NCBI GenBank assembly: GCA_038040445.1
Contig: JBBPIG010000003.1
Location: 1-64,000, forward strand
Origin: Acidobacteriota bacterium
GTDB taxonomy: Bacteria > Acidobacteriota > Blastocatellia > UBA7656
Direction of reading: 5' to 3'
DNA: 64,000 nucleotides
Under the pieces are notes generated by a model, which was not told the origin of the DNA, ran no database searches, and saw nothing but the letters and a program-made list of their open reading frames with translations. Position numbers and translations under genes: made by a program. Shown piece by piece: positions 20,854-38,943 of the stretch; position 1 is the stretch's first letter, and each line of letters starts with the position of its first letter.

Positions 20854-23445
20854 TTATTTGGCGGGAATGATGCTCACGAATTGAACGACAAATTCCTCTC
20901 CGTCTTTTGTGCCAAACCCGATCCGTCCATTAGAGAAAGTGGAATCGGTCACCAGGCTGAAAGGTTGGGGCTGAGTGGCTTTCGGGTTGCTCTTCACTTG
21001 AAGCAAGTGTTTTATCTGCGGCCCGTTCGCCTCGATGATGATGTGAAACTTGTCGCCTGGAACACCGAGGTTTTCAGGGACCGTAAATGTCTTCAGCAGA
21101 TCTGACTTGCCATTCTGGTAGAGGAATGTGTGGAACTTGTTCGGCGATGAGGCGCCCGGTCCCGTAAGCTGAAAGAGATAGCATGTGCTTTCATCCTGAC
21201 CGCGCAGGACCCAGACCGCTCCTTTGCCGTTGCCGAAGATCAGGTCAAACTCCATCCTGAAGTCTTTGTAGCTTGTATCTTTAATCAGCCCTATGCCTGG
21301 GCCTTGCACCTTCAACTTGCCGGAACTTGATTGCCAGGACTTCGGCGCATTCCAGAACCTAAGGCCTGCGTCGAAGGTATCGACAAACTCTGGAGAGAAG
21401 ACTGTGCGATTCAGCGCCAGTTTTATCTCGGCAGGCCCGGCGCTGAAGGTCTGAGCCTTCTCTGCCGGTTCGTACTCATTCTTCTTCGCGCGTATTCTGT
21501 GCTGGCCTGGCGCGAGATTCGAAATTCTGATTTCGCCCTTCTCATTCGCGCGGCCTCCATAGTTGTCGTCGATGTAGATCTCGGCTTCGGGTTCCGTCTT
21601 CACGATCAGCCCGACCAGAGCCGCCTTGAACTCAGCCCCAATATACTTTGTTCTGCCGTCTTCGACATCTACTTCTCTGGTCCATTCAACTTGATTCTGT
21701 ATGACTCTCAGTTTGTGGCGGCCTGCCGCCACATCGGCCAACTCGATTAGTTTTTCCTCTTTCCTTAAGCTCACGCTTAGAGGTTTTTGATCGTCGATCA
21801 ACACGGTCGCGCTGGGGTCAACCCCGCCGATCTGAATGACGCCCCCTAGCGGAGTCAGTTCGACTGGCACTGCCTCGTCGGTCTCTAACTTGATGCCTGA
21901 GATTCTCTTTAGCGAGTATTTGGCTGCGCTGACTTCGATGTCGTAAAGGCCCGGGGGAAGCTCTGCGCGGAATTTGTTATCGACGCTCTGACCCTGCACA
22001 GGCCTTAGCGCGGCATCGCGCGGCTTAACAACAACGCTGGCTGGAGTGTTGGTTATGACTATCAGCACTCCCTTCGGAGCCTTTGAGGGTGCCGTATCTG
22101 TCTTGACCGCGAGAGGCGGAGCAGGCGGCTGAATCCGTCGAACAGCGATCTCGGCGAATCTTCCCGTCGGATACTCTTTCAAGTACGCTTGGTAGTCCGA
22201 GACATTCTTACTGTTTCGGACTCTTTCCCATAAGGCATCTTCACCTAGCCGCGTCGCGAAGCTCGCGTTCTTTCCTGTCGGAAATCTTTTCAGATAGTTG
22301 TTGAAGTCCGCCGGGTCTTTACTGTTTTGTATGCTCTCCCAAAGCGCTTGCTCGGTAAACATGCCGCCGGGATATTTCTTCAGGTAATCCCGGAAGGCAA
22401 CGGGACTATTCTTCGATTGAGCAATTTCCCAATCGCTCCGTTCGACTGCAGCGGGATCAACGATCGCCACATTCTCCGGTGCCGCGACTTTTGAAAGCAC
22501 CAGGTCGTTAGCCCTGTAGCCTTTCATCACGGCATATGGCTTTTGTACCTTGCCCGCTCCCAGGTCGAGGCGTATGCGCTTCGGCACCTGATCCTGCAAG
22601 TAAGTCAGGAGGCTGCTTAGCGTCACCTCGCCCTTCTCATTTGCCGCCGCGCCCTTCAACCCTTCGACAAGCGCCCAGGAAAAATACCCCTGCTTCTTCT
22701 CTTTGTATTCGTATGCGCGACTGCCTACGTCTGTCGCATAGAGCGTGGCGAAAGCTTTTACTTCGGAGTTAGCTTCTTCAAAATTGAAATGCTTAGTGAA
22801 CCTTTGGGTGAGCTTGTTATCAGCATCGCCGCGTCCGGCCGACGGATCATTCCGGCACGCGTCGAGGATCAATACCACCTGCCCAACTCCGGTCTCGTCG
22901 ATGCGCTTTCGCATGTCATCTACATTGATTGAACTCTGTTCGAGGAGCGAGACATCGTTACTGAGTTCTGCATCCGAGGGAAGTAGGTAAGCCTGGTCGC
23001 CGCGCTCTATTCCGTGCCCGGCGAAAGCGATCAGCAACAAACCGTCCTTCGGCACCGCTCCGCGCAGGTTCGATAACTGTCTCAGAATCTTGTTGCGCGT
23101 GGGTCTTCGCTCTGTCGGTTGATCGGCGGTGAGCAGCTTCACCTGATCCCGTGGGAAGCCTGCATACTGAACCAGAGCTTCGACGATTGCTTTAGCGTCG
23201 TTTGACGCGCCCTCGAGCTTGTTGATTTGTGAGTCCTCGTATTCATCCACGCCGATCACCAAGGCGAATCGCTTGGAACTGCTTGGCAGAGCTTCGATCG
23301 GTTTCGAGGGCTGAACTCGCATGCCGCGGCCATCTTTTTGTGTCTGAGCCGCGCGATTTGCCGCACCGCTCGTCGCGTTGCAAAGGCAGATCGCAGCCGT
23401 GGCTATAAAAATAAGGGAGCGAAGATACGAAGGCTTTCTTTTCAT
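20854..23445 (-). CDS. Secreted caspase-family (C14) protease with PEGA and C-terminal beta-sandwich domains
   Basis: An 863-residue exported metacaspase-like protein. The start at 23445 gives a signal peptide ('SYLRSLIFIATAAICLC'); the frame extends further upstream without a signal. The caspase p20-like domain (about 55-290) starts 'RFALVIGVDEYED' and has the catalytic dyad His (about 144, 'FAGHG') and Cys (about 197, 'LDACRND'). Residues of about 345-450 hold three repeats of the type 'YLKKYPGGMFTEQALWE'. PEGA-type domains follow ('VVVKPRDAALRPV', 'LIVKTEPEAEIYIDD'), and a C-terminal region (about 690-863) resembles the concanavalin-like DUF1080 fold ('FRMEFDLIFGNGKGAVW'). Surface-anchored proteolysis or regulated cell lysis are family-level guesses only. 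It is divergent from the cytochrome cluster across a 556-bp spacer. Confidence 0.87.
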   Translation of the reverse strand: MKRKPSYLRSLIFIATAAICLCNATSGAANRAAQTQKDGRGMRVQPSKPIEALPSSSKRFALVIGVDEYEDSQINKLEGASNDAKAIVEALVQYAGFPRDQVKLLTADQPTERRPTRNKILRQLSNLRGAVPKDGLLLIAFAGHGIERGDQAYLLPSDAELSNDVSLLEQSSINVDDMRKRIDETGVGQVVLILDACRNDPSAGRGDADNKLTQRFTKHFNFEEANSEVKAFATLYATDVGSRAYEYKEKKQGYFSWALVEGLKGAAANEKGEVTLSSLLTYLQDQVPKRIRLDLGAGKVQKPYAVMKGYRANDLVLSKVAAPENVAIVDPAAVERSDWEIAQSKNSPVAFRDYLKKYPGGMFTEQALWESIQNSKDPADFNNYLKRFPTGKNASFATRLGEDALWERVRNSKNVSDYQAYLKEYPTGRFAEIAVRRIQPPAPPLAVKTDTAPSKAPKGVLIVITNTPASVVVKPRDAALRPVQGQSVDNKFRAELPPGLYDIEVSAAKYSLKRISGIKLETDEAVPVELTPLGGVIQIGGVDPSATVLIDDQKPLSVSLRKEEKLIELADVAAGRHKLRVIQNQVEWTREVDVEDGRTKYIGAEFKAALVGLIVKTEPEAEIYIDDNYGGRANEKGEIRISNLAPGQHRIRAKKNEYEPAEKAQTFSAGPAEIKLALNRTVFSPEFVDTFDAGLRFWNAPKSWQSSSGKLKVQGPGIGLIKDTSYKDFRMEFDLIFGNGKGAVWVLRGQDESTCYLFQLTGPGASSPNKFHTFLYQNGKSDLLKTFTVPENLGVPGDKFHIIIEANGPQIKHLLQVKSNPKATQPQPFSLVTDSTFSNGRIGFGTKDGEEFVVQFVSIIPAK

Positions 23446-23814
23446 AGGAGAATTTCCTGCGGTACTGTCCGTTGCAAAGCAATAGCTGTCGATAGCTCTT
23501 CTTTGTCCTCTCAACAAATGAGGCAAGACCGATCTCTTGCGACTAATCGAGTGAGTCCGAGCGATAACCTGACTGGCTGCCTTAAGCATAACAGCTCGAT
23601 TAGTCTACCATACGCAGCGGCCTAACTTAAGGTTCTTGAGACTCAAGCCCAGGGATTAACGCCGACAGATTCGAAGTGGCTATCCTTGAGTTTTCGCGCA
23701 TTCTGAAAAGGTTCAGTGAAAAGTCGCGTTGCGCGACCGACGTGCGGTCGATTGCACGCGGACCCATGCTGGCGGCCGTTTCTGTGACCGAGTCCGAAAT
23801 CTCTAGAAGGTTTT

Positions 23815-23867: not shown

Positions 23868-24001
23868 CGGCGCGATCATTTTCGAGTAGCGGGTGTTCGG
23901 TGTCTGATATTTCTCATCACAAGCGCAATGCTTCATAGCTTGTAATCAGGCTGTACTGGTAATCATTTCCCGACGTTGGGTCATCGATTGTGAGGCGCGG
24001 A

Positions 24002-26305
24002 ATGAGACTCAAACTGGTAGTCGTCGCCATTTATGGGCTGTTGCTATTTCTGCCCGTCGGCTTCTCGATGCGCTCGCTGGCTTTTTCTGATAGCGACGAA
24101 CAGGGGCAGGGGAAAACTCAATTCACTCCGATCGCCTTCGATACGACCGGCAGAAGGGGTCTGGTCCTTTTCAACCACAAGACCCACGAAGCATTGCTTA
24201 ATCCCGATCCGAACTTTCCTCATAAAGCACCCGAGGGCGTCGCCTGCATCGGATGCCATCACTCGGTAAAAGAGGAAACCACCAGAGCTCAGTTTCAAAA
24301 GTGCACAGCTTGCCATAAGGACGAGGGCAATGCCACGAACCCGGACGATCGCGAAGGCTACGATCTGAACTCGCGAGAGGCTTTTCACCGGCTCTGCATC
24401 AGTTGCCATCGCGCTTCAAACCTCAAAGCCTCGAACGCTCGATTCCGCGACGTCGGGTTCACGAAGTGCGCCCAGTGCCACGACAATCAAGCTGAGCCTA
24501 TGCAGTTGGCCGCGCAGCCCGAAGTCGTTCCGCCGCCGGATGAAGAGCCTGAAGCGCCTCCGTCTCTTGGCAGACCAGTCGAGATCTTCACAACGCCCAT
24601 GGACCCGCCGCGAGGTTACGCTGGCGGCTCCCGCATAGACACTCCGACGCAGACGTCGCCTGATTCCATTCCGAGCCCGGACCGCTGGCGCATCGGTCTT
24701 CCGGAAGATCCCCGCTTTGAGCAAGGCAAGTGGTACAACCCCTATCGCCAGAACGTGCTCAAGGGCGATTATCCGATATACAAGCAGCAGAATTTTCTCG
24801 TACTGACTCTTGAGAGTGACACTCTTGCTATTTTTAGGCGGCTGCCTCTGCCGAGCGATATGAGCAGCGCGCGCCCCGACAGCGCGGAGTTCTTCGGCCG
24901 GGGCGTGAATGAGTTCTTCCGTCAGAACTTCACTCTGGGCATCGAATTCTTTAACGGCGATGCAGCGTTCAAGCCTATCAATTGGCGGTTCCGGTTCACA
25001 CCCAACTTCAATATCAACTATTTCAACACTCAGGAAAACGGCATCGTCAACATTGACGTTCGCAGACAGACGAATCGAACCGACAGCTACACGGGCTTCC
25101 AGGAGTTGTTCACCGAGTTCAAGATCGGAGACACAACCAAGCTCATGCCGTTCTTGCGCGGGGCAGGGAGCGACGGCGGCAAGAGTCCCTATTACGATTC
25201 AACCTTCATTCGCACAGGCATACAGCAGTTCATTAGCGATTTTCGCGGGTTCATCTTCAACGATTTCAACCTGGGTGCGCGGGTGTTTGGCCAATTCGCA
25301 AACAACCGATACAACTTCAACGCAGCCTATTTCCACCTGCTCGAGAAAGACACCAACAGCGAGTTGAACACCCGCGTCAACCTCAGCGAGTTCCGCAATC
25401 AGACGGTGTTCATCGCCAACCTCTTTCGCCAGGACACCAAGTGGAAAGGCTACACCACTCAGTTCAGCTTTCACTACAACAACGATCGACCGAGCAGGCA
25501 CTTCGACGAAAACGACTTCCTGGTTCGGCCCGGGTTGTTCGGCTCTGTCAGAGAGCACGGGATAAAAGCTTACTACCTTGGCTGGGCCGGCGATGGTCAC
25601 ATCGGCCTCAACAATATCTCGCACGCTTTTTATCAGGCGTTCGGCCACGACTCGTTCAATCAAATCGCAGGCAAGAGGACAAGCATCAACGCGCAACAGG
25701 CGGCAATCGAGTTGTCGCGTGACAGAGATTGGCTGCGGTACAAAGGATCGTTCTTCTTCGCATCGGGCGACAAGGAGCCGTTTGACGATAGGGCAACCGG
25801 CTTCGACGCGATTGTGGACATCCCTGAATTCGCCGGAGGGAAATTCAGCTACTGGAACAGCCAGGGCATTCGCCTGCTCGGCACCGGAGTCGGTTTGAAG
25901 AGTGGCGAGAGCCTGTTGCCTACCTTGCGCAGCAGCAAGTTTGAAGGACAGGCCAGCTTCGTCAATCCTGGAATCTTCCTATACAATCTGGGAATTGAAG
26001 CCGAGCTGACTCCGAAGCTTCGCGGCATAGCCAACATCAATTATCTGCACTTCCATCACACGGAGTCGTTGAAGGAAATCCTGTTTCAGCCGAATATCCG
26101 CAAGAGCATCGGATTCGACTACGGGGTCGGCGTCCTCTATCGGCCTTTCCTGACAGAGAACTGGATCATTCAGGGCGGGTTCTCATCGCTGATACCCGGA
26201 GCAGGGTTCAACGACATCTACACTTCAAATTGCACCGGACAGGGATGCGGGCAGCGGTCCAAGACTCTCTTTTCGTCATTCATACGCTTGAAGTTTACTT
26301 ACTGA
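24002..26305 (+). CDS. Tetrahaem cytochrome c fused to an outer-membrane beta-barrel
   Basis: A 767-residue protein with a signal peptide ('MRLKLVVVAIYGLLLFLPVG') and four CXXCH haem sites between about residues 80 and 162 (CIGCH, CTACH, CISCH, CAQCH), with extra His in 'FNHKTHE' for axial ligation. A Pro/Glu-rich linker follows (about 170-215). From about 245 to the end it has alternating amphipathic strands typical of an outer-membrane barrel, ending 'FIRLKFTY'. The cytochrome half is a paralogue of the free tetrahaem protein at 30542, down to the signal peptide. Porin-cytochrome conduits normally use separate barrel and cytochrome subunits; here both are in one chain. I start at ATG 24002; a GTG at 23990 would add only four residues. 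It is the first gene of the cytochrome cluster, 36 bp before the decahaem gene. Confidence 0.85.
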   Translation: MRLKLVVVAIYGLLLFLPVGFSMRSLAFSDSDEQGQGKTQFTPIAFDTTGRRGLVLFNHKTHEALLNPDPNFPHKAPEGVACIGCHHSVKEETTRAQFQKCTACHKDEGNATNPDDREGYDLNSREAFHRLCISCHRASNLKASNARFRDVGFTKCAQCHDNQAEPMQLAAQPEVVPPPDEEPEAPPSLGRPVEIFTTPMDPPRGYAGGSRIDTPTQTSPDSIPSPDRWRIGLPEDPRFEQGKWYNPYRQNVLKGDYPIYKQQNFLVLTLESDTLAIFRRLPLPSDMSSARPDSAEFFGRGVNEFFRQNFTLGIEFFNGDAAFKPINWRFRFTPNFNINYFNTQENGIVNIDVRRQTNRTDSYTGFQELFTEFKIGDTTKLMPFLRGAGSDGGKSPYYDSTFIRTGIQQFISDFRGFIFNDFNLGARVFGQFANNRYNFNAAYFHLLEKDTNSELNTRVNLSEFRNQTVFIANLFRQDTKWKGYTTQFSFHYNNDRPSRHFDENDFLVRPGLFGSVREHGIKAYYLGWAGDGHIGLNNISHAFYQAFGHDSFNQIAGKRTSINAQQAAIELSRDRDWLRYKGSFFFASGDKEPFDDRATGFDAIVDIPEFAGGKFSYWNSQGIRLLGTGVGLKSGESLLPTLRSSKFEGQASFVNPGIFLYNLGIEAELTPKLRGIANINYLHFHHTESLKEILFQPNIRKSIGFDYGVGVLYRPFLTENWIIQGGFSSLIPGAGFNDIYTSNCTGQGCGQRSKTLFSSFIRLKFTY

Positions 26306-26341: not shown

Positions 26342-29300
26342 ATGAAAGTATCGAAAAATGCGCTCAAGCTTCTGTTGATCCTCGTGATCGTCGGCCTCTA
26401 CGGATTCTTCGTTCTTGCAGGCTCGATGACGAAGGCAGACTCGTCGAAGCGGCCGGCTGATTCGAACGGGGCCGACGCCTCCACACAGAATCCGCCAGCA
26501 ACGCAAACGGCGCGGCCGGTCCAGGCGGCCGGGCTGTTCGGCGAAAGCCCGGAAGAAGCCATGCGCCGAAGCGTAGGCTGCATCGATTGCCACAAAGGCA
26601 TAGAAGATATGCACAACGGGGTGATCAGCCTCGGCTGCATCGATTGTCACGGAGGAGATGCGAACGCTCGTGCGCAGGGCACGCAGAAAGGATCTGCCGG
26701 ATACGAGGGCGCTAAGAAAGCAGCGCACGTTAAGCCACGATTCCCCGACCGGTGGAAGACGTCTGCTAACCCTGAACGCCCTTACTCTCTCACGCTTGAA
26801 GAGAGCCCTGAGTTCATCCGGTTCGTGAATCCTGGCGACCTGCGCGTGGCGCAACTGAGCTGCGGCACAACGGAATGCCACTCCGGCGACGTGCATAATG
26901 TGAAGAAGAGCATGATGGCGACGGGCGCGATGCTCTGGGGCGCGGCGCTCTACAATAACGGAGCGTTCCCGTTCAAGAATTACAGATTCGGCGAAAGCTA
27001 CGGGCCGGATGGTAAGCCTCAGAGACTGCAGACCGCTCCGCAGCCCACCGCGGAAGAGACGCAAAAGAAAGGCATTCTCGCGTACCTTGAACCGCTCCCG
27101 CGCTGGGAGATGTCCCAGATGAGCAACATCCTGCGCACGTTTGAGCTTGGCGGGCGCAAGGCTGCTGAGATCGGGATTCCCTCTATCGAAGAGCCGCCCG
27201 GAAAACCGACGCAGAATCTATTGAGCCCGCGAGGACTTGGAACGAACCTGAGAACCGACCCGGTTTACATTGGCCTGCAAAAGACTCGCTTGCTCGATCC
27301 GATGCTGTCCTTCATGGGAACGAACGATCAGCCGGGAGATTACCGTTCGAGCGGCTGCACTGCTTGTCACGTCGTCTACGCGAACAACCGCAATCCATTT
27401 GAAGCAGGACCGTATGCGGCGCACGGCCACACGGGCGAAAGCGCGAGCGCCGATCCGACTATTCCAAGGGGCGAGCCCGGTCACCCCATCAAGCATCAGT
27501 TCACCAGGGCTATTCCATCAAGCCAGTGCGTAGTATGTCACATGCACCCGGGAACAACTGTGCTGAATTCTTACTTCGGCTCGATGTGGTGGGACCTCGA
27601 GACTGACGGCGAAGAGATGTACCCAAAGGAAGAAAAGAAACTCAGCGCCGAGCAACGCCGCGAGATTATTTTGCGCAACCCCGAAGAGTCCGCGCTTAGA
27701 GGCAAGTGGGGCGACGTCGAGTTCTTGAAATCGATTCGGGATGAAGTTAATCCGAAGCTCAAACACACCCAGTTTGCAGACTTCAACGGGCACGGATGGG
27801 TCTACCGCTACGTTTTCAAACATGATCGGAAAGGGAACCTGCTCGACGCCGGCAACAACGTCATCGCTGACGTAACCAATGAAAAGCTGCAGCGCGCAGT
27901 GAATGAGCCTGTTGGCGATGGTTCTTCGCGGGAGGGCGTGCCGGTTCACCTGAAGGACATTCACGAAGAGAAGGGGATGCACTGCGTGGATTGTCACTTT
28001 AAGCAGGACAATCATGGCGACGGAAAGCTCTACGGTGAAGTGCGCGCCGCTATCGAGATTGATTGCATTGACTGTCACGGGACGATTACCAAGCGGGCAG
28101 ATCCGACTTCGCGAGATGCATTGACCACTGCAGCCGCGGGCGGCAATCGCATGCTCGACTACCGGAATCTTCCTTCGCGCAAGGATCGGTTCTTCAAGAA
28201 GGACGGTAAACTGTTTCAGCGCGGGGCGGTCGCGAAAGACCAAGAAGGCAAGCCGCTCGTCTGGGAAGTAAGGCAGGTGATGGATAGCATCACGCCCGGA
28301 AACGAGCACTACAACGAGAAGGCCGCGCTCGCCAAGACGATTCTCAAGGACGGAAAGACCTGGGGCAGTGCGCCGAAGGATGACGTTCAGCTTGCGCACG
28401 CAAACAAGAGCATGACCTGCTTCACCTGTCATACCTCGTGGACGCCGAGTTGTTTCGGCTGTCACCTGAAGCAGACGGCGAACCAGCAGAAGCCGATGCT
28501 GCACAACGAAGGAACGGAGTCGCTGCGCAACTACTCGTCTTACAACTTCCAGACCTTGCGCGACGACGTCTTCTTGTTGGGTAAGGACGGCACGGTGACC
28601 GGACGGCGGGTGGCGCCGGTGCGTTCCGCCTGCGCGGTTTTTGTAAGCTCTCAGAATGCGAATCGCGAGTGGATTTACTCGCAACAGCAGACGGTCTCCG
28701 CGGAGGGATACAGCGGCATATCTTTCAGCTCGCACTTCCCGCATACCGTGCGAACGACCGAGACCAAAGGCTGCGCCGATTGTCACCTCTCTGAAAACAA
28801 CGATAACAATGCGTACATGGCAATGGCCCTGATGCAGGGAACCAACTTCTATAACTTCATCGGGCGATTCATGTACGTGGCGCAGAAAGAACACGGCTTT
28901 GAGGCAGTTGTCGTCACCGAGCGCGACGAGCCGCAAGCGGTCATCGGAAGCTCTTTGCACAAGCTGGCTTTCCCTGAGGAATACAAGAAGCATTTAGAGC
29001 TTAAGAAGGAACTGGAGGAGTTTTACGAGCATCCGGGCAACGACGTTGGCACGAACCTCACGCTATTCAAGAAGGAGAAGACCGAAGTCTTGATGCTGCA
29101 GCACCGAGGCGAGTTTCTATACGCGGCGACCGGCGAGGGCGGCCTCAGAGTCTACGATATAGCCAACGTGGATCAGAAGGCCTTCTCGGAGCGAATAACC
29201 ACGGCCCCGTTCTCGCCTCTCGGGCAGCGGCTCTATGTCAAAACGAAGTACGCGACCGCGGTGGCCACACCGTCGACCACAGCCGTCGATCCTACACGTA

Positions 29301-30475
29301 AGCACTATCCGCAGAACGAGGAATGGGAGAACCGCGACGACAAGCAGGGGATAAATCTGATTTATGCGTTCCTCTACGTCGCGGACAAGTATGAGGGGTT
29401 GGTCCTCGTAAATGTGGCCACGCTGCTGGATGGGAATCCGAGGAATAATTTCCTCAAGCGGGCGCTCACCTGGAACCCGAACGGAATTCTGAACGGAGCT
29501 AACAACATCACGGTTGCAGGCTCCCACGCCTACATAACCTGTGACCGAGGCCTGGTGGTCGTCAATATAAGCGACCCGCTCAAGCCTCGCGTTGTCGGCG
29601 AATTCGGCGCGCCGTTCATAAAGAACGCGCGAGCTGTTCAGGTGCAGTTCCGGTATGCGTTCGTGACCGACTCGGAAGGCTTGAAAGTCGTCGACGTGAC
29701 CAATCCTGATAGTGGGCGCGCGGTGAGCGGCGCAGTCGTGCCTCTTTCGGATGCTCATAATCTGTATCTGGTGCGCACCTACGCATACGTGGCGGCCGGT
29801 AAGCAGGGGCTGGCGATCATCGACATAGAGAATCCCGAGAAGCCCCGCCTCGATCAGATCTTCAACGGCGAAGGCGACATCAAAGACGCGCGCGACGTCA
29901 AGGTCGGCATGACGAATGTGAGCCTTTTCGCCTATATTGCCGACGGCGAGCACCATGCCATGCACGTCGTTCAACTGACTTCGGCCGAGCAGCCGGACAA
30001 CTATGGCTTCAGCCCGCGCCCGCGGCCTGAGCTTATCGCGAGCAAAGAGACGCTCGGCCCCGCGCTATCGATCTCGGAAGGCGTGGATCGCGACCGCGCG
30101 GTGGACGAGAGCGGCAACCAACTGTCCGTTTTCGGGCGCAGGGGCGCGAGGCCCTTCAACGCGGCCGAAATGCAGCGAATGTACATGATCAACGGCGCTA
30201 TGTTCACGGTTCCCAACATCAAGGACGGAAACAAGAAGGAGAACAAGGACATTCGCCGGTTCTTCGGCGCGCCAAAGACCTCGGACGGGGCGACCACCGA
30301 TTCGACGCCGAAGGTTGAACGCAAGAACGCGGATGAGACGAAGTCCGGGCAATCGAACGAGCCGAAGAGCCCCGCGAAGGAAGCGCGGATGCGTAACGCC
30401 GCCCAGTTGTCGAGCCTCGCCTTTATGTCATTGCCGCTCGCAGCCGTGTTGTTCCGGCGACGCAGACGACGATGA
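26342..30475 (+). CDS. Decahaem cytochrome c with LVIVD beta-propeller and C-terminal anchor
   Basis: A 1377-residue exported protein, the largest of the cluster. An N-terminal signal anchor ('[18 protein letters not shown]') is followed by nine CXXCH sites (CIDCH twice, CTACH, CVVCH, CVDCH, CIDCH, CFTCH, CFGCH, CADCH) spread over about residues 78-820. One further CX4CH site, C-G-T-T-E-C-H, lies near residue 180. The C-terminal third (about 920-1220) has LVIVD-type propeller repeats ('[11 protein letters not shown]', '[16 protein letters not shown]', '[12 protein letters not shown]', '[14 protein letters not shown]'). The chain ends with a short hydrophobic segment and six Arg ('[17 protein letters not shown]'), like C-terminal sorting or anchoring signals of the MYXO-CTERM/GlyGly-CTERM kind. 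I infer a surface-exposed electron carrier tethered to the envelope. Haem binding by the CX4CH site is unproven. Confidence 0.88.
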
Positions 30476-30541: not shown

Positions 30542-31060
30542 ATGAGACTGAAGCTGGCTGTTCTTATCACTTACGCGCTGGGCGTGGCGTTGCCCGTGGC
30601 TTTCGGCGCCGGGCTGTTCGCTAAGGCGGCCGAGCAACAGACAGAAAGCGGTTATGCGCCGAAGGTGATCAGGCTTGACGAGAAGGGAAGACGCGGCGTG
30701 GTCTTCTTCGATCACAAAGGCCACGAATCGCGCCTAAGCCCGGACTCGAATGCGCCACATCCGGCAAAGAAAGGGGCCGCGTGCTCCGGTTGCCATCACT
30801 CGATTAGCTCGAGGGGAATCCCGCAGTTGTACAAGTGCAACGTGTGCCATCACCGGAAGGACGGCGATCCGCGTAACCCAAAGAATCGAGAGTTCGATGA
30901 GGTGATGGCCGAAAGGGCATTTCACGATAGTTGTATCGAATGCCACAGGGTGGCCGAGAAGGGGCCCACGACATGCAGCGGCTGTCATAAGGCGGGAGTT
31001 CAGCCCGGCACTCTCGGCACAATAAGGGCGCTCGATAGTCAAGCTGGGAGCAACGATTAA
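30542..31060 (+). CDS. Periplasmic tetrahaem cytochrome c (class III-like)
   Basis: A 172-residue protein with a signal peptide ('MRLKLAVLITYALGVALPVA') and four CXXCH motifs (CSGCH, CNVCH, CIECH, CSGCH), two of them CXXCHH. It aligns along its whole length with the cytochrome part of the barrel fusion at 24002: shared 'GRRGVVFFDHKGHE'-type sequence, 'CSGCHHS' and 'AFHDSCIECHR'. The small size suits a soluble periplasmic shuttle between inner- and outer-membrane modules. It is separated from the decahaem gene by 66 bp and followed by a palindrome. Confidence 0.92.
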   Translation: MRLKLAVLITYALGVALPVAFGAGLFAKAAEQQTESGYAPKVIRLDEKGRRGVVFFDHKGHESRLSPDSNAPHPAKKGAACSGCHHSISSRGIPQLYKCNVCHHRKDGDPRNPKNREFDEVMAERAFHDSCIECHRVAEKGPTTCSGCHKAGVQPGTLGTIRALDSQAGSND

Positions 31061-31181: not shown

Positions 31182-32150
31182 TTGGCGATGTTGCGAGTCA
31201 AAAAGAGCATCTTCGCTTTGGCCTGCTTTCTGGCGGCGGGAATATACTTTGGGTTCCCGTCTCACGCAGAAGACGACGCCGCTGCGGCCAACGCCCAACG
31301 GCCGAGACGAGTCGGCGGCGAGCGCGCCACTTTCGATCACAAGCGAAAAGATCACGCCAAGGTCACTTGCAACGTCTGTCATCGGGTGACGCCGCAACAG
31401 ATGGAAGTCGTGTCGTTCCCGGCCCATCCGACGTGCGTCAGTTGTCACAACTTCGCCCAGGAGTTCTTCAAAAGGGGGGTCGCCTTCTGCGGCGTCTGTC
31501 ATCAGGGCGGGCCGACTTCAAAGATGAGTTCTGCGCTATTCGACTTCAAAGAGAAGACGAATAAGCTCCACGCCGTCCTCGGAAGCGATTTCGGCATAGA
31601 CTTTTCGCATCCGGCTCATCGTAAACCGCTGCCGGAGGATTTTGTGTTTCGGCCGGTCACTACGATCCCGTCTGACGCACCGCAGACCAAGCTTACCGCC
31701 GGGCAAACTGCCCGATGCACTGATTGTCATCAGAGGATCAAGAAGGCGAACGCCGGCGAAAATGAAATGACGATCGAGAAGGGCCACTCGACTTGCTTCC
31801 AGTGTCACGGCATCAAGCCCGATACCGCCGCTCGAGAAAAATTCCCGTACATGAACGACTGCAAAGAGTGCCACGAGATTGGCGGCCCAAAGGCTACGCA
31901 CCTGGCCTCGATTCGCGACTTCAGCCACGCCGACCACGAGTATGACATTCGCCCAAGAAGAAAAGTCGATTACCAAGTGAAGCGATCACCAGACTTTCTG
32001 TGCGCCGAGTGTCACAAGTCCGTGGACCAGGCGAAGAAACTTACGGACATACGGATGCCTGAAGAGACCACTTGTGGAGCATGTCACAGCGGCCGGTTAG
32101 GGCTCCCCGACGCTTTGGCTCGTGATGTATTGGATAAGCTGAGACAGTAG
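31182..32150 (+). CDS. Periplasmic octahaem cytochrome c
   Basis: A 322-residue exported protein with signal sequence 'SIFALACFLAAGIYFGFPSHA' shortened by cleavage after Ala. It has eight CXXCH motifs (CNVCH, CVSCH, CGVCH, CTDCH, CFQCH, CKECH, CAECH, CGACH). Additional His residues in 'ATFDHKRKDHAK', 'IDFSHPAHRK' and 'RDFSHADHEYD' are likely distal ligands, a pattern of cytochrome c7/class III-type multihaem carriers. Start choice: GGAGG (31172-31176) lies 5 bp from TTG 31182 and 11 bp from ATG 31188; I keep the TTG but either is possible. It is followed after 23 bp by the nonahaem lipoprotein gene. Its role is inferred as a periplasmic electron bridge. Confidence 0.88.
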   Translation: MAMLRVKKSIFALACFLAAGIYFGFPSHAEDDAAAANAQRPRRVGGERATFDHKRKDHAKVTCNVCHRVTPQQMEVVSFPAHPTCVSCHNFAQEFFKRGVAFCGVCHQGGPTSKMSSALFDFKEKTNKLHAVLGSDFGIDFSHPAHRKPLPEDFVFRPVTTIPSDAPQTKLTAGQTARCTDCHQRIKKANAGENEMTIEKGHSTCFQCHGIKPDTAAREKFPYMNDCKECHEIGGPKATHLASIRDFSHADHEYDIRPRRKVDYQVKRSPDFLCAECHKSVDQAKKLTDIRMPEETTCGACHSGRLGLPDALARDVLDKLRQ

Positions 32151-32173: not shown

Positions 32174-33067
32174 ATGAGAAACGACACTACGAGAAGGCTG
32201 AAACTTATCATCACCTGCGCGGCGGCGATTCTTGTCATCGGCGGGCTGGCCTGCAAAAGCTCAAAGCAGCCGACCGCCAACAAGGCCGCTGAAACGCCTC
32301 AGCCCGCGCCTCAAACGGCTGCCCCGTCACCGTTCGATGTAAAAGAATCCGTGGTGATTGAGCGCACCTCACCCTTCAATCACACGCGCGCCGAGCACCA
32401 GACAAAGACAAAGGATTGCGCCTTCTGCCATCAGCGTTTGGACAACAGCGTCACGCCGGTGTTCCCCGGCCACTCGGCTTGCATAGAATGTCACGCAAAA
32501 GATTTTACAAATACATCGAGTCAAATGTGCGTCGTATGTCACAAGGCTCCAGTTGACGCTCAAGGGACAAGAATAAGTTTTCCGGGGAAGATGAGTGAGT
32601 TCGGCGTCAAAGGGTTCTCGCACAAACAGCACATGGACCCGAAGAAGATGGCTGGCGAGACTGAGACTCCGAAGTGCAGCACCTGCCATCAGTCTACCGA
32701 ACGTGCCGCGGCGAGTTTTCCGAATCATCAGCAGTGCTATAGCTGCCATGTTCATCAAACAAATCAGAAGTTCGGCGAGTGCGGGGTCTGTCACGCCGAC
32801 ACAAAGCTCGCTTTGAAGTTCACAAGGGGTACCGGGTCGGCATTGGGCTTATATAATTTCAAGCACGGGCCTCATACGAAGAAGGCAAGTTGCGATAGAT
32901 GCCATCACCAGATCGAAACCGCGCCGAAACAGGTGCGCGCTGATATTCAGACGATCAGCGCCGGGCGAGGTCAGCGTCATACCTCGGCCTGTTGGAGCTG
33001 CCACGTTCAGGCTAAAGAGTCTGTTTGCACGAAGTGTCACCGCGGTTCCCTGCCGTTTTCCTTTTAG
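32174..33067 (+). CDS. Nonahaem cytochrome c lipoprotein
   Basis: A 297-residue protein with a lipoprotein signal: hydrophobic 'LIITCAAAILVIGGLAC', whose 'GLAC' is a good lipobox, then a Lys/Ser/Pro-rich linker. Nine CXXCH motifs follow: CAFCH, CIECH, CVVCH, CSTCH, CYSCH, CGVCH, CDRCH, CWSCH and CTKCH. Paired His in 'SPFNHTRAEHQ', 'FSHKQHMD' and 'FKHGPHTK' precede haem sites as in class III cytochromes. The lipid anchor could place it on the inner face of the outer membrane next to the barrel fusion, or at the inner membrane. A palindrome begins 8 bp after its stop codon and a promoter-like sequence follows, which may end the first transcription unit. Confidence 0.92.
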   Translation: MRNDTTRRLKLIITCAAAILVIGGLACKSSKQPTANKAAETPQPAPQTAAPSPFDVKESVVIERTSPFNHTRAEHQTKTKDCAFCHQRLDNSVTPVFPGHSACIECHAKDFTNTSSQMCVVCHKAPVDAQGTRISFPGKMSEFGVKGFSHKQHMDPKKMAGETETPKCSTCHQSTERAAASFPNHQQCYSCHVHQTNQKFGECGVCHADTKLALKFTRGTGSALGLYNFKHGPHTKKASCDRCHHQIETAPKQVRADIQTISAGRGQRHTSACWSCHVQAKESVCTKCHRGSLPFSF

Positions 33068-33263: not shown

Positions 33264-33284
33264 CTTTGTCGCCGGGTGAGCCGT

Positions 33285-35723
33285 ATGCCGAAAGAACAAA
33301 AGAGCCGTCGCGAAGTCATTAATGCGATCAAGACCCTTCCAGCCATCTCTGCTCTTATGTCCGCGCACGACGGTCACTACGACTATGAGCTCGATCTCGA
33401 AGTCACGGTATACGGGCGCAACTACGGTGGCAAGAAGGTAGGTCCCTACTTCCGCCTGCTGAACTATGAGCCCGGAGAGGCGGTTATGGTTCAGGGGGAA
33501 TGGGGCGGCAACACCTTGTTCTTCCTCGTCGCCGGCGCTCTGGAAGTCTACGTCCGGGCGCCCAACGAGCAAGACGTGAAAGTCGCGGAGTTGACGCCGG
33601 GCACTCAGTTCGGAGAGATGAGCGTGCTGGCGGGCGTTCCTCGCAACGCCACTATCAAAGCGCCGCCGGACAAGCCCGCCCAGGTCCTCGAGATTCACCG
33701 CCCGGCGTTGCGTCTGCTTCGCAAGCTCCCCAAGTTTGGCGAGAACCTCGACAACACATATCGAACTCACGGCAGAGATGCCGCGCTTGAAAGCCTCAGA
33801 CTCACCGGCGGGCTGACCCCCGAAATGACGAGCGAGCTGCGGGGTTATTCCTTGTTCCGGGTGTTCGCGAAAAACCATGTCCTTTTCCGCGAGAATGAGC
33901 GAGTCAATCGAGTCTACATCATTAAGGAGGGATGGGCGCGCCGGACGCAATCAGTGTCAGGCAGAGAGGTCGAAGACTTCGTGGGTCACGGCTTCTGCTT
34001 TGGTCTCGAAGGCGCTGTGAAAGATTCAAGCTGGCCTTACACCGTGACGCTGATGGGCCGCACTGAAGTCGTTGAAATATACACCTCGAAACTGCGTGAG
34101 AGACATGCGCTCAGAGAAGCGCTGCTCAAAGTGCTCGGCACCAGTGTGCCACCCGCAATCGGCTCTTTTGTTAACTACAAGCCTGCTGTTCACGACGCGA
34201 TGCTCGCCGCTCAGGAGAGGCTCATCGAGACGGGGCTCGTGGACGGAACCAATCTGCTGGTGATGGACATGGACCTGTGTGTTCGCTGCGGCAATTGCTC
34301 GCTCGCGTGCCACAAGATTCACGGCCAATCCAGACTCATGCGCAGAGGCGTTCACGTCACCCGCCTTGAAGCCCCTCGCGCGAGTGCCGTTCAAAGCGTG
34401 CTTTCGCCCGAGGTCTGCATGCATTGCGCGGATCCCGAATGCTTGACCGGCTGCCCGACCGGGGCGATCGGCCGATTCGATCTGGGTCAGGTCGATATCG
34501 ATCCCAAGACGTGCATCGGATGCGGCGACTGCGCGACCCAGTGTCCTTACAACGCGATATCGCTGGTCCCGCGCAGACCGAAAGCCCCTGCTCCAGGCGC
34601 CGTCAGTTTCAAATCGAAGCTTCAGGAATTCCTGAGAATCAAACCCGATCCGATTCCGCCGCCGGTTGACACTACCGAAGACCTCGTTGCGATCAAATGC
34701 AACCTGTGCAGCGACCGCACGTCGATGAACCCTCCGGGCGCAAAGACCCGAGCGTACAGTTGTGAAGAGAACTGCCCCACGGGAGCGCTCGCGCGCGTCA
34801 GGCCGCGAGAATATTTCACCGAGATCGGCCAGATCGAAGGCTTGCTGCTGGTCGATAAGACTCATGCCTACGGGCGTAACATACACAAGTCCGATCCGCC
34901 GAAACGCTTGATTCATTTGGCAGGCATATTGTTCACCGTGCTGGCGACCGCCGCAACAATCTTCGGACTACAGCAATATGGACTGGGCGAGCGCATCTTC
35001 AGCTTCCTGAACATGCGCTGGATCACGGGCATAGCCGGCCTCGTTGGAATCGCGGCGGTGATGACTTATCCGGTGAGGCGGCAGATCTACACCAAGCGCG
35101 TAGGGCCGCTGCGCTATTGGATGCTGGCGCACGCTTATGTGGGAATAATCGCGGGGATGTTGATCCTGCTGCACGGCGGCACTCATTCCGGGGGCGCGCT
35201 CACCACTGCGCTAATGGTCTGCTACGATCTGGTCATCTTCACTGGCATACTGGGAATCTTTATCTACTTTTTCGCGCCTCGAAAGCTCACGAAGATTGAA
35301 GGCACGCCGCTCCTGATCGATGATCTAAAAGACCGGCGCGAGGAGTTGCGGAAGGAGATTGCGGAGATCGGCGGCCAGGCAGCCGGACCGCTTCAAAGCA
35401 TCGTGAAGGACAAAGTGGTGCCGCGTTTTGTCTCGTTCGGTTTTCTGTTGCGGCAGTTTCTCGGCCGAAAAGATCTGGACGAGATGGTTGAATCAGCAAA
35501 GGCGGGATTCAACCAGGAGCGGGCAAGTCTGGCGAACGAGAAAGACCGGCACAAGTTGGATCGCGCCATCGAAGCCGCCGCGACGCTGCGCCGAATTGAC
35601 GCGTTGATCTATCTGCATCGCTCGTTGAAAGTGTGGCTGCCGCCGCACGTGGCGACCACTGCCTTGATGCTGGCGTTGATGATCGTTCACATCATACAAG
35701 TTGTTTACTATGCCGCGCGGTAG
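33285..35723 (+). CDS. cNMP-binding, four-cluster Fe-S and cytochrome b-like membrane fusion protein
   Basis: An 812-residue protein in three parts. (1) Two cyclic-nucleotide-binding folds: the first (about 50-145) keeps a full phosphate-binding cassette 'FGEMSVLAGVPRNAT'; the second (about 185-285) has lost the Arg-Ala part ('FGLEGAVKDSSWPYT'). (2) A DMSO-reductase-B/HybA-like electron-transfer domain (about 330-500) with four Cys groups: CVRCGNCSLACH, CMHCADPECLTGCP, CIGCGDCATQCP and CNLC...CEENCP. (3) About five membrane helices (from about 542) with His suited to b-haem ligation in 'LAHAYVGIIAGMLILLHGG' and 'HVATTALMLALMIVHIIQ'. Start ATG 33285 has GGGTGA at ideal distance. I infer a quinol- or ferredoxin-linked electron entry gate responsive to a cyclic nucleotide. 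No signal peptide, so the sensors and clusters are cytoplasmic. Confidence 0.87.
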   Translation: MPKEQKSRREVINAIKTLPAISALMSAHDGHYDYELDLEVTVYGRNYGGKKVGPYFRLLNYEPGEAVMVQGEWGGNTLFFLVAGALEVYVRAPNEQDVKVAELTPGTQFGEMSVLAGVPRNATIKAPPDKPAQVLEIHRPALRLLRKLPKFGENLDNTYRTHGRDAALESLRLTGGLTPEMTSELRGYSLFRVFAKNHVLFRENERVNRVYIIKEGWARRTQSVSGREVEDFVGHGFCFGLEGAVKDSSWPYTVTLMGRTEVVEIYTSKLRERHALREALLKVLGTSVPPAIGSFVNYKPAVHDAMLAAQERLIETGLVDGTNLLVMDMDLCVRCGNCSLACHKIHGQSRLMRRGVHVTRLEAPRASAVQSVLSPEVCMHCADPECLTGCPTGAIGRFDLGQVDIDPKTCIGCGDCATQCPYNAISLVPRRPKAPAPGAVSFKSKLQEFLRIKPDPIPPPVDTTEDLVAIKCNLCSDRTSMNPPGAKTRAYSCEENCPTGALARVRPREYFTEIGQIEGLLLVDKTHAYGRNIHKSDPPKRLIHLAGILFTVLATAATIFGLQQYGLGERIFSFLNMRWITGIAGLVGIAAVMTYPVRRQIYTKRVGPLRYWMLAHAYVGIIAGMLILLHGGTHSGGALTTALMVCYDLVIFTGILGIFIYFFAPRKLTKIEGTPLLIDDLKDRREELRKEIAEIGGQAAGPLQSIVKDKVVPRFVSFGFLLRQFLGRKDLDEMVESAKAGFNQERASLANEKDRHKLDRAIEAAATLRRIDALIYLHRSLKVWLPPHVATTALMLALMIVHIIQVVYYAAR

Positions 35724-35772: not shown

Positions 35773-38700
35773 ATGGCTACTAAGAGTCGTTTCATCATAA
35801 AGCGAAGAGACAAGTCGGTCGACGACATCCTCCTCGAAAGTGAAGGGCTGACCATCGGCCGGCTTACCGGCAATGACCTGGCGCTCAATAACCGCGCGGT
35901 CTCTCGCACCCACGCCGGGATAAGAGAGTTCAACGGCGAGTACTGGATCTTCAATCTGTCTGAATCAAACGGCACCGTGCTCAACGGCTGGCTCGTGGAC
36001 AAGACGCCGCTGTTGGACGGCGATGTTATTCAGATAGGTCCGTACTCTCTGCTGGCCAATTACGCTCAGGGGGCGTTGTCGCTCACTGTCCAGATAGATA
36101 CCGAAATCCATCCGGTCGAGGGCGGCGCGACCCGCATGCTGTTTGAAGAGGATCTGGGCAAGACGGTGATGGTTCAGATTCCCGCGGGCGTCAAGAAGCA
36201 GGCGGTTGCGCCCGGCGGCACCGAGAGATTTCAATTGGGAACGGGCCTGTTCAGCGCGGTGCCACCCGCGCTTGATCAGCAGGCGCTCAACGTTTTCTGG
36301 GACAAGCGAAAAAGAGAGGCGGGAAAGATTGCTCCGCAAAGCCTGCTTCATCCGAGAACCAACAAGAAAGTCGGCAAAGCGCAATTCAACTGGCGTCCCT
36401 CCCTCGATCTGCGGCGAATCTGGCGCAAGTCATATTTTTACTGGGGCGCCGGCGTTGTCGCGCTGCTCTCTATCATCGCAGTGATTATCTACGAGAACGC
36501 TTATTCGCCGGGCCCGGTCTCGTTGGCTCATACCTCGTCGCAGATGTCTGCCCGCGCGATTGCCCTAAAGCCAAATGAAAACTCCTGCTCGAATTGTCAT
36601 GGCGTGAGCGAAGGCATGCAGGACAAGTGCGTCACTTGTCATACGACGCCGGCAAATCAAACGGCGCCGGCATTCCTACCCGTCGTCTTCGACAAGCACG
36701 CTCGCGAAAACATCGGCTGCACGGGTTGCCATGTCGAGCACAGAGGCGCGAGCTCCGACTTTGGACTCAAGAGCAACCAGCTTTGCTCGAACTGCCATAA
36801 CGGGAGCTACACCATCAAGACCGGCGACAAGACGGGACAGGCCTTGCCCGTCGCACACGGCGGCACGGTAGGCTATCCGGTGACCAACGGCAAGTGGGCT
36901 AAAATGCTGGATGCCGATCAACTTCGGGTGAGGGACCTCCCCGACACATGGGCGGGGCCAACCTTTGATTCAAATCGCCAGTTCCACTCCATTCATCAAC
37001 TCGGCCGGATGAACAACCGGATGAGCTGCAAAGACTGCCACACCTCAGGGGTGCGCGGTGAAGCGAGCTTCCGCGACTCGCCGAAGGCCGAGTGCGCTAA
37101 GTGCCACGACCTCGTCGCCGGCGCGACAGGCACGCAACGCGTCCAGGCGAATTGCTACACGTGCCATCGGCAGCACGGACGCAGCGAAGACCTGTTGCAG
37201 CTTGTGGCTGAGGCAAAAGACGATCGGAGGATCAAAGAATACTTCAACAAAATCGATAGCGGCAAAGATGAAGTCGGCAAGCGATTGGCGACGGCCAGCG
37301 AGAATCTGTTTTCGGGTGTTGGCGGCGCAGACCAGATCCGCCAGGACAAAGACACTCTGAGCGCGACCGTGCTTTCATCCTTCGGCGGGTTGCCGTGGTA
37401 TGGTTGGGTCGGACTGGTCGGAATCCTGCCGATTGCGGGTCTCGCGGTGATGGCGGTTGGAACCGTGCGCCGCAAATACTCCTTGCAGAATGTAAAAGCG
37501 GACGCCGCGCCGAACGAGAACGAGGTAGCAAGAGCGCTCACAGGCGTGCTCGATCTGGAGAAGCTGAAAGCCGAGGAGGCTCCGTATCCGCATCCGGTCA
37601 TAAACCAGGCGACCTGCATAGGCTGTCACGCTTGCGTGGAAGCCTGTCCGCACGACGTGCTTGCGATAGTCAACGGCGTCTCAACGCCCATCAATCCCGA
37701 TCAGTGCATGGAAGACACCAGTTGCCAGGTCGAGTGCCCCACTAATCCGAAGTCGTGCGTCGTCATCAACACCAAGAAGAAAATCCCAGAGAGAAAAGTC
37801 CCGAAGCGAGACCAGCGATTCAAGACCAATGTCGAAGGTATCTACCTGATCGGAGATGTGTCCGGCGTTCCTCTGATCAAGAACGCGATCAACGAGGGCG
37901 GCACGGTCATCGATTCCATTGCCGAAGACATCAAGAAAGAAGGCGCCAACGGCAAAGCTGAGTACGATGTCGCGGTCGTCGGCATCGGACCGGCGGGGTT
38001 GTCGGCTGCGGTTATTGCCAAACAACGCGGTTTGAAATACATCGCCATCGAGCAAGACAAGATAGTGGCCACCATCCAACAGGTCTATCCCGCGGGCAAG
38101 TATGTTTTCTTCAAACCCGACACAGTTGAGACGAAAGGCGGCATCCCGCTCCCGGGCCCCGGCGACTCGAAAGAGAACATGCTCAAGGGCTGGCTCGGTG
38201 CGATGATGTCGAACGGCGTCGTCATCAACGAAGAGGAAAGCTGCAAAGACATAAAACCGGAAGACGGGGTCTTCACCCTCACAACCGAGAAGGGAAAAGC
38301 CAAAGAGAAAGCCACCTACAAGGCTCGCAAGATCATCATCGCGATCGGCAATCGCGGCACGCCAATGAAGCTTCGAGTGCCGGGCGAGGACCTCAAGGTG
38401 ATGATGACGCCGCCGCCCATAATCCCAAAGTTCTGCCCGGGCTGCGGGTCGGGCCGCAAAGGCGCGCAGCAGTTCTGCGTCGTGTGCGGCGCGCCGTATC
38501 CGGTCAAGAATCAGCCCGCTTACGAAACGGGCAAAGTTCAATTCAAGCTCTCCGACCCCGATGACTACGTAAACAAGAAATGCATAATCGTGGGGGCAGG
38601 GAATTCGTCCATAGAATCCGCGGTTGATCTGGCCGGACTCAAGCGCGACGGCGAAAAAATCACTTTCACCCGCAACAACGATGTGACCCTGGTCGTCCGC

Positions 38701-38943
38701 AGCGATTTCAAGGGGGACCTCAAGCTTGGCAACAAGATGAACGTCTACGACTGCATTGACGCCGGGAAGATCAAGGTCTTCTTCCGAACCGAGATCAAAG
38801 AAATCACACAAAACGAAGTCGTGCTTATGGATGTGCGAAGCAAGGAAGAGAAAGCGCGGCTCGCCAACGATTTTGTGTTTGCGCTGATTGGCGGCGAGAA
38901 GCCGACGAAGTTTTTAGAGGGGTTGGGGATCAAAGTAGGATGA
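35773..38943 (+). CDS. FHA-heptahaem cytochrome c-ferredoxin-flavin reductase fusion
   Basis: A 1056-residue single chain. Residues of about 1-100 form an FHA phosphopeptide-binding domain ('IGRLTGNDL', 'SRTHAGI', 'SESNGTVLNG'). A transmembrane helix (about 222-241) leads to a periplasmic segment with seven CXXCH sites (about 272-465: CSNCH, CVTCH, CTGCH, CSNCH, CKDCH, CAKCH, CYTCH), and a second helix (about 541-563) returns to the cytoplasm. There follow a ferredoxin domain (CIGCHACVEACP at about 615, then a second Cys group), a segment with 'VEGIYLIGDVSG', and a YpdA-like FAD/NAD(P) oxidoreductase (FAD motif 'VVGIGPAGLSAA' about 733, NAD motif 'IIVGAGNSSIES' about 937). A CPGCG...CVVCG zinc ribbon (about 888-905) is inserted. 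Topology permits electrons from NAD(P)H to cross to periplasmic haems, or the reverse. The GDVSG segment normally follows the NAD domain, so the flavin fold looks circularly permuted. Confidence 0.85.
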   Translation: MATKSRFIIKRRDKSVDDILLESEGLTIGRLTGNDLALNNRAVSRTHAGIREFNGEYWIFNLSESNGTVLNGWLVDKTPLLDGDVIQIGPYSLLANYAQGALSLTVQIDTEIHPVEGGATRMLFEEDLGKTVMVQIPAGVKKQAVAPGGTERFQLGTGLFSAVPPALDQQALNVFWDKRKREAGKIAPQSLLHPRTNKKVGKAQFNWRPSLDLRRIWRKSYFYWGAGVVALLSIIAVIIYENAYSPGPVSLAHTSSQMSARAIALKPNENSCSNCHGVSEGMQDKCVTCHTTPANQTAPAFLPVVFDKHARENIGCTGCHVEHRGASSDFGLKSNQLCSNCHNGSYTIKTGDKTGQALPVAHGGTVGYPVTNGKWAKMLDADQLRVRDLPDTWAGPTFDSNRQFHSIHQLGRMNNRMSCKDCHTSGVRGEASFRDSPKAECAKCHDLVAGATGTQRVQANCYTCHRQHGRSEDLLQLVAEAKDDRRIKEYFNKIDSGKDEVGKRLATASENLFSGVGGADQIRQDKDTLSATVLSSFGGLPWYGWVGLVGILPIAGLAVMAVGTVRRKYSLQNVKADAAPNENEVARALTGVLDLEKLKAEEAPYPHPVINQATCIGCHACVEACPHDVLAIVNGVSTPINPDQCMEDTSCQVECPTNPKSCVVINTKKKIPERKVPKRDQRFKTNVEGIYLIGDVSGVPLIKNAINEGGTVIDSIAEDIKKEGANGKAEYDVAVVGIGPAGLSAAVIAKQRGLKYIAIEQDKIVATIQQVYPAGKYVFFKPDTVETKGGIPLPGPGDSKENMLKGWLGAMMSNGVVINEEESCKDIKPEDGVFTLTTEKGKAKEKATYKARKIIIAIGNRGTPMKLRVPGEDLKVMMTPPPIIPKFCPGCGSGRKGAQQFCVVCGAPYPVKNQPAYETGKVQFKLSDPDDYVNKKCIIVGAGNSSIESAVDLAGLKRDGEKITFTRNNDVTLVVRSDFKGDLKLGNKMNVYDCIDAGKIKVFFRTEIKEITQNEVVLMDVRSKEEKARLANDFVFALIGGEKPTKFLEGLGIKVG

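Follow-up and report, generated by a model that had tools for sequence, protein, structure and literature searches.

MtrAB, MtoAB and PioAB each consist of two chains, with the barrel sheathing a decahaem cytochrome. The barrel of MtrB/PioB has 26 strands (PMC10654088). Cyc2, which has been described as unique in its fused cytochrome and porin, carries one haem, the motif AXPXFAR[Q/K][T/Y] and a predicted 16-strand OprP-like barrel (PMC8406198). The putative PCC3 and PCC4 clusters encode an inner-membrane protein with five transmembrane (TM) helices and two WX3HX13H motifs, and the three periplasmic cytochromes of PCC4, with 4, 5 and 10 haems, are separate chains (PMC5566968). ExtI, the porin of the Geobacter ext cluster, has been proposed as a possible selenite/tellurite channel (PMC5877670), and in the porin-multihaem clusters of freshwater Verrucomicrobia an 8-haem cytochrome lies adjacent to a porin with at least 20 predicted transmembrane strands (PMC5615132). 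An earlier note on the DNA analyzed here had stated that the known systems use separate chains; this holds for MtrAB and PioAB, but the contrast is incomplete because the single-chain Cyc2, a fused monohaem cytochrome-porin, exists (PMC8406198). Our literature search for multihaem-barrel fusions in Acidobacteriota found no paper.

A tetrahaem c3 domain and an 18-strand barrel in one chain

Within the window, that is, the whole 64,000-nt stretch of Acidobacteriota DNA that was analyzed, the fused gene and the genes downstream of it are organized as listed in Table 1. The fused gene is a single unbroken frame running from the ATG at 24002 to the stop at 26305, and the frameshift between haem and barrel parts that the earlier note had regarded as fatal to its claim is absent. 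An in-frame GTG is found upstream at 23990, and the ATG is the start in relatives. From the N- to the C-terminus, the protein comprises a signal peptide, a c3-type tetrahaem domain, a variable linker of about 60 aa, a pre-barrel segment and the 18-strand barrel, with one N-terminal hydrophobic segment (aa 5–23) detected by hydropathy. Among the fused homologues, the mean identity is 61% in the haem domain and 67% in the barrel, and 38% in the linker. Directly upstream and divergently encoded is a caspase-domain protein with a PEGA domain (20854–23589).

Table 1. Positions of the fused gene, its parts and the downstream genes in the window.
Feature	Position	Strand	Evidence
Fused tetrahaem cytochrome c3/18-strand barrel protein, 767 aa	24002..26305	+	ORF, Pfam, homologues, AlphaFold2
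Signal peptide (about aa 1–30), homologous to that of the free tetrahaem protein	24002..24091	+	Hydropathy peak aa 5–23; match to free protein starts at residue 1
Class III (c3-type) tetrahaem domain (aa 51–162)	24152..24487	+	Pfam, PDB matches, conserved ligands
Variable Pro/Glu-rich linker (aa 163–222)	24488..24667	+	58–67 aa, 38% mean identity among fused homologues
Conserved pre-barrel segment (aa 223–263, DRWRIG...QNVLKGDYPI)	24668..24790	+	Also found in haem-free barrels
18-strand beta-barrel (aa 264–767), AlgE-like fold, no Pfam family	24791..26302	+	AlphaFold2, fold searches, Pfam alignment search
9-haem cytochrome with LVIVD beta-propeller repeats and ExtM-related domain; conserved barrel partner	26342..30475	+	Family matches, neighbourhoods
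Free tetrahaem c3-type cytochrome, paralogue of fused haem domain	30542..31060	+	Pfam, alignment, tree
Octahaem cytochrome with signal peptide	31182..32150	+	Motif count, Pfam, hydropathy
Nonahaem cytochrome, probable lipoprotein	32174..33067	+	GGLAC lipobox, inferred from sequence
Two cNMP-binding domains, 4Fe-4S and five-TM cytochrome b with two WX3HX13H motifs (PCC3/PCC4-type inner-membrane protein)	33276..35723	+	Domains, motif (PMC5566968)
FHA, TM, seven haems, TM, ferredoxin, pyridine-nucleotide oxidoreductase in one chain	35773..38943	+	Domain matches, hydropathy

The four CxxCH motifs of the fused protein are located at aa 82, 101, 132 and 156 (nt 24245, 24302, 24395 and 24467). Pfam Cytochrom_CIII matched aa 66–160 with an E value of 1.9e-8 (35 bits against a cut-off of 22.9), and cytochrome c3 chains in the PDB matched the fused protein with an E value of 7e-6. 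The distal histidines of a class III cytochrome c3 are likewise found, in FxHxxH, in CxxCHH and upstream of the third CxxCH, and these residues (H59, H62, H87 and H129) are kept in 9/9 fused and 20/20 free homologues. With a family match above the cut-off and invariant distal histidines, the four haem sites claimed from the letters alone are borne out.

For the C-terminal part, the structure prediction and strand count that the earlier note had called for gave a closed-type barrel: AlphaFold2 placed 18 strands across aa 264–766, mostly at high confidence, while pLDDT was below 50 for most of aa 28–260, the region of the haem domain and linker, so that the model is informative for the barrel and not for how the haem domain sits relative to it. 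AlgE was the best fold match across the full barrel (Z 27.6, rmsd 2.9 over 359 residues, 12% identity), and the best fold matches among those listed were substrate channels, namely AlgE and Occ/OprD. The barrel thus has the 18-strand AlgE fold, a likeness that alone is not proof of membership in the AlgE family, and it matched nothing in Pfam (searched with a 43-member alignment), the NCBIfam models or the PDB sequences. MtrB/PioB chains were not among the 50 matches listed by the fold searches, an absence that proves nothing. The C-terminus reads FIRLKFTY, which we take to be a typical end of an outer-membrane protein, and we infer an outer-membrane location for the fused protein. Because barrels with an even number of strands usually have both termini in the periplasm, the haem domain would be periplasmic.

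Distribution and origin of the fusion

The same fusion was found in nine further genomes, as eight intact loci and one copy that is truncated at a contig end and starts with the apparent end of the last haem motif, and this recurrence rules out a local assembly artefact. Together with the intact ORF, it confirms that haem sites and barrel belong to one polypeptide. The barrel was detected in 78 of the 162 genomes of the window's class (Blastocatellia), and among these class genomes a haem domain precedes it only in the window's family (7 genomes) and in two genera of another family. In the other copies read in the class, the signal peptide leads into a Pro-rich or carboxypeptidase-regulatory-like N-terminus, without CxxCH. 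The barrel recurs in the wider phylum without the haem domain and also in a second phylum (Verrucomicrobia, Pedosphaera), where it was present in 11 of 387 genomes and haem-free in every copy read. As most lineages make the barrel without a haem domain, the fusion is not needed for its core function. Fused and haem-free barrels occur together in genome G150 (L043 and L044), each followed by an LVIVD cytochrome. Among the weak haem matches of the phylum, the examined ORFs L075–L081 (about 620–670 aa) were rejected as further multihaem-barrel fusions; their N-terminal halves are hydrophobic and their six haems lie in the C-terminal part, which makes them resemble inner-membrane cytochromes rather than barrels.

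In almost every locus that was read, a 9–10-haem LVIVD cytochrome is encoded after the barrel gene. This cytochrome was present in 78 of the 162 class genomes, 77 of which are barrel genomes, so that both are found in 77 of the 79 genomes that have either of them, and the two genomes having only one are both at most 74% complete. In the second phylum, barrel and LVIVD cytochrome were adjacent in 10/10 further loci. This near-constant pairing indicates that the barrel belongs to a redox system with or without a haem of its own. The similarity of the LVIVD cytochrome to ExtM is partial, at 86–90 bits against a family cut-off of 800, and a literature search for LVIVD combined with cytochromes found no relevant paper. 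A hydrophobic stretch plus arginines forms the C-terminus of many LVIVD cytochromes and is missing from others; a sorting signal and a membrane anchor would both fit these tails.

The fused barrels are monophyletic in the barrel tree (support 0.998). In a tree with other tetrahaem relatives, the fused haem domains (81/94) and the same operons' free tetrahaem proteins (96/90) each form a clade, the two being sisters; support for the fused haem clade is moderate. The free protein is homologous to aa 1–160 of the fused protein, signal peptide included; at 43% identity, however, the wording of the earlier note, in which the two were nearly superimposable, was too strong. Its proposal that the fusion arose by duplication of the operon's tetrahaem gene is supported by the two sister clades and the monophyly of the fused barrels. 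Since fused and free domains fall in separate clades, a recent duplication inside the window genome was rejected, and the simplest reading of the trees is that one older duplication and then one fusion took place before the clade diversified. The fused barrels of the other family branch within those of the window's family, a pattern that suggests horizontal transfer of the fused gene.

The operon and the function of the fused protein

The operon resembles a porin-cytochrome system. The protein at 33276–35723 carries the inner-membrane signature of PCC3/PCC4, two WX3HX13H motifs (helices 3 and 5), and the motifs recur in 20 ORFs of related loci; the SGXXG reported for helix 4 reads TGILG in this protein. 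The haem-count set of PCC4 (4/5/10) was not found. Other lineages of the phylum and the second phylum encode a related set, often contiguous, of an Fe-S/cNMP protein, a cytochrome b, a 10-haem protein, the barrel and the LVIVD cytochrome. In the protein at 35773–38943, the eighth CxxCH (aa 615) belongs to the ferredoxin; the protein could carry electrons from NAD(P)H to the periplasm within a single chain, and in L062 its parts are split over two ORFs. An FHA-GAF-adenylate cyclase gene (39941–41584) lies near the cNMP-binding redox protein, and an adenylate cyclase homologue is also found near a free tetrahaem homologue in L045, L056, L057, L058, L060 and L061. This gene proximity suggests that the redox chain may be under cAMP control.

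We consider it reasonably probable that this conserved operon encodes a trans-envelope redox system of the porin-cytochrome type, with the fused protein as its outer-membrane subunit, and that in one clade the porin gained a duplicated periplasmic c3-type tetrahaem carrier at its N-terminus. The inner-membrane modules, namely the cytochrome b with Fe-S and cNMP-binding domains and the FHA-heptahaem-ferredoxin-flavoprotein, would pass electrons to the periplasmic tetra-, octa- and nonahaem cytochromes. The fused haem domain, tethered to the barrel at its periplasmic entrance, would accept electrons from these cytochromes, and either the 9-haem LVIVD cytochrome of the neighbouring gene or a small substrate coming in via the barrel would receive them; electron flow could also run in the reverse direction. 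The haem domain is most likely a tethered periplasmic relay that would serve the barrel and the partner cytochrome. The variable linker between the conserved haem domain and barrel, and the retention of all ligands in the nine intact fused loci, argue for such a relay, while the hydrophobic and arginine-containing tails of many LVIVD cytochromes, which also fit an inner-membrane anchor, and the haem-free barrels of most lineages count against it.

That the fused protein is a single-chain conduit across the outer membrane, in which the tetrahaem domain would plug the barrel and the haems of the LVIVD cytochrome would reach in from outside to complete a continuous wire, appears unlikely. Haem domain and barrel do share one chain, the partnership with a 9–10-haem cytochrome is conserved, and the operon encodes a PCC-type inner-membrane cytochrome b, all of which would fit. 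A folded c3 domain, however, is about as wide as an 18-strand barrel, and four haems alone are too few to span the membrane. In addition, the linker varies in both length and sequence, nothing points to a cell-surface position of the LVIVD cytochrome, and the 18 strands compare with 26 in MtrB/PioB (PMC10654088). Strand number, variable linker and haem number together mean that the conduit proposed in the earlier note is not borne out; a plug or wire through the 18-strand barrel is possible only if the partner adds haems inside it. A complete conduit of novel design across the outer membrane, built from the fused protein and the LVIVD cytochrome, is likewise doubtful; in it, a small 18-strand barrel would carry a covalently attached tetrahaem c3 that passes electrons to haems inserted from the opposite side, a layout different from the 26-strand Mtr and the monohaem Cyc2 systems.

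A substrate channel combined with a reductase is quite unlikely too. Here, the AlgE/OprD-like barrel would take in or export a soluble compound (such as an oxyanion, a metal complex or a redox shuttle), which the haem domain and the LVIVD cytochrome would reduce or oxidize in the periplasm, with no electrons crossing the outer membrane. The substrate channels among the listed fold matches point in this direction, as do the C-terminal hydrophobic tails that could anchor many LVIVD cytochromes in the inner membrane and the ExtM-related domain of the LVIVD cytochrome, ExtM being from the Geobacter selenite/tellurite operon whose porin ExtI is a possible channel (PMC5877670). Against this, a shared fold does not prove function, the barrel matches no NCBIfam model, and the haem content encoded by the operon goes far beyond what a simple periplasmic reductase would require. 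Misassembly, frameshift, read-through of two genes or chance CxxCH motifs before an ordinary porin were rejected as exceedingly improbable, given the same fusion in nine other genomes, the match to the curated c3 family and the conserved haem ligands.

Comparison with known systems

Like Cyc2 and Cyt572 of iron oxidizers, the fused protein combines a signal peptide, an N-terminal c-type cytochrome domain and an outer-membrane barrel in a single chain. Unlike Cyc2, it has four CxxCH rather than one and lacks AXPXFAR[Q/K][T/Y]; its haems are of the c3 type, its fused barrel is AlgE-like with 18 predicted strands instead of a 16-strand C-terminal porin, and it is encoded in a multi-cytochrome operon. 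With MtrAB, MtoAB and PioAB it shares a barrel and a multihaem cytochrome at the outer membrane, but it is one chain with a tetrahaem c3 domain, and its 18 strands do not make up a 26-strand barrel. The operon is like PCC4/PCC3 in having a porin, several multihaem cytochromes including a tetrahaem one, an Fe-S protein (PF13247) and the five-TM protein with two WX3HX13H motifs. It differs from PCC4 in its cytochromes of 4, 8, 9 and 9 haems plus the fused 4-haem porin, in its LVIVD repeats and in its FHA and cNMP-binding domains, with the porins compared by description only. As in the Geobacter extHIJKLMNOPQS cluster (PMC5877670), a porin lies near an ExtM-related multihaem cytochrome, a cytochrome b and Fe-S proteins, whereas the fused haem domain and the LVIVD propeller are not described there, and the barrel has no NCBIfam match. 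The freshwater Verrucomicrobia clusters, also compared by description only, are similar in having a novel porin gene beside multihaem genes, in a phylum that has haem-free relatives of the barrel.

The fused protein looks like part of a porin-cytochrome system and is assigned to none of Cyc2, MtrAB/PioAB and PCC4. The fusion links haem domain and barrel physically, and the near-perfect co-occurrence links the barrel to the LVIVD cytochrome, so that a two-gene barrel/LVIVD module spread over two phyla, of which we found no description in the literature searched, becomes a testable candidate outer-membrane redox system. The idea of a single-chain cytochrome-porin is already known from Cyc2; what is new is a multihaem one, a further cytochrome-porin fusion with four haems, another cytochrome fold and another barrel.
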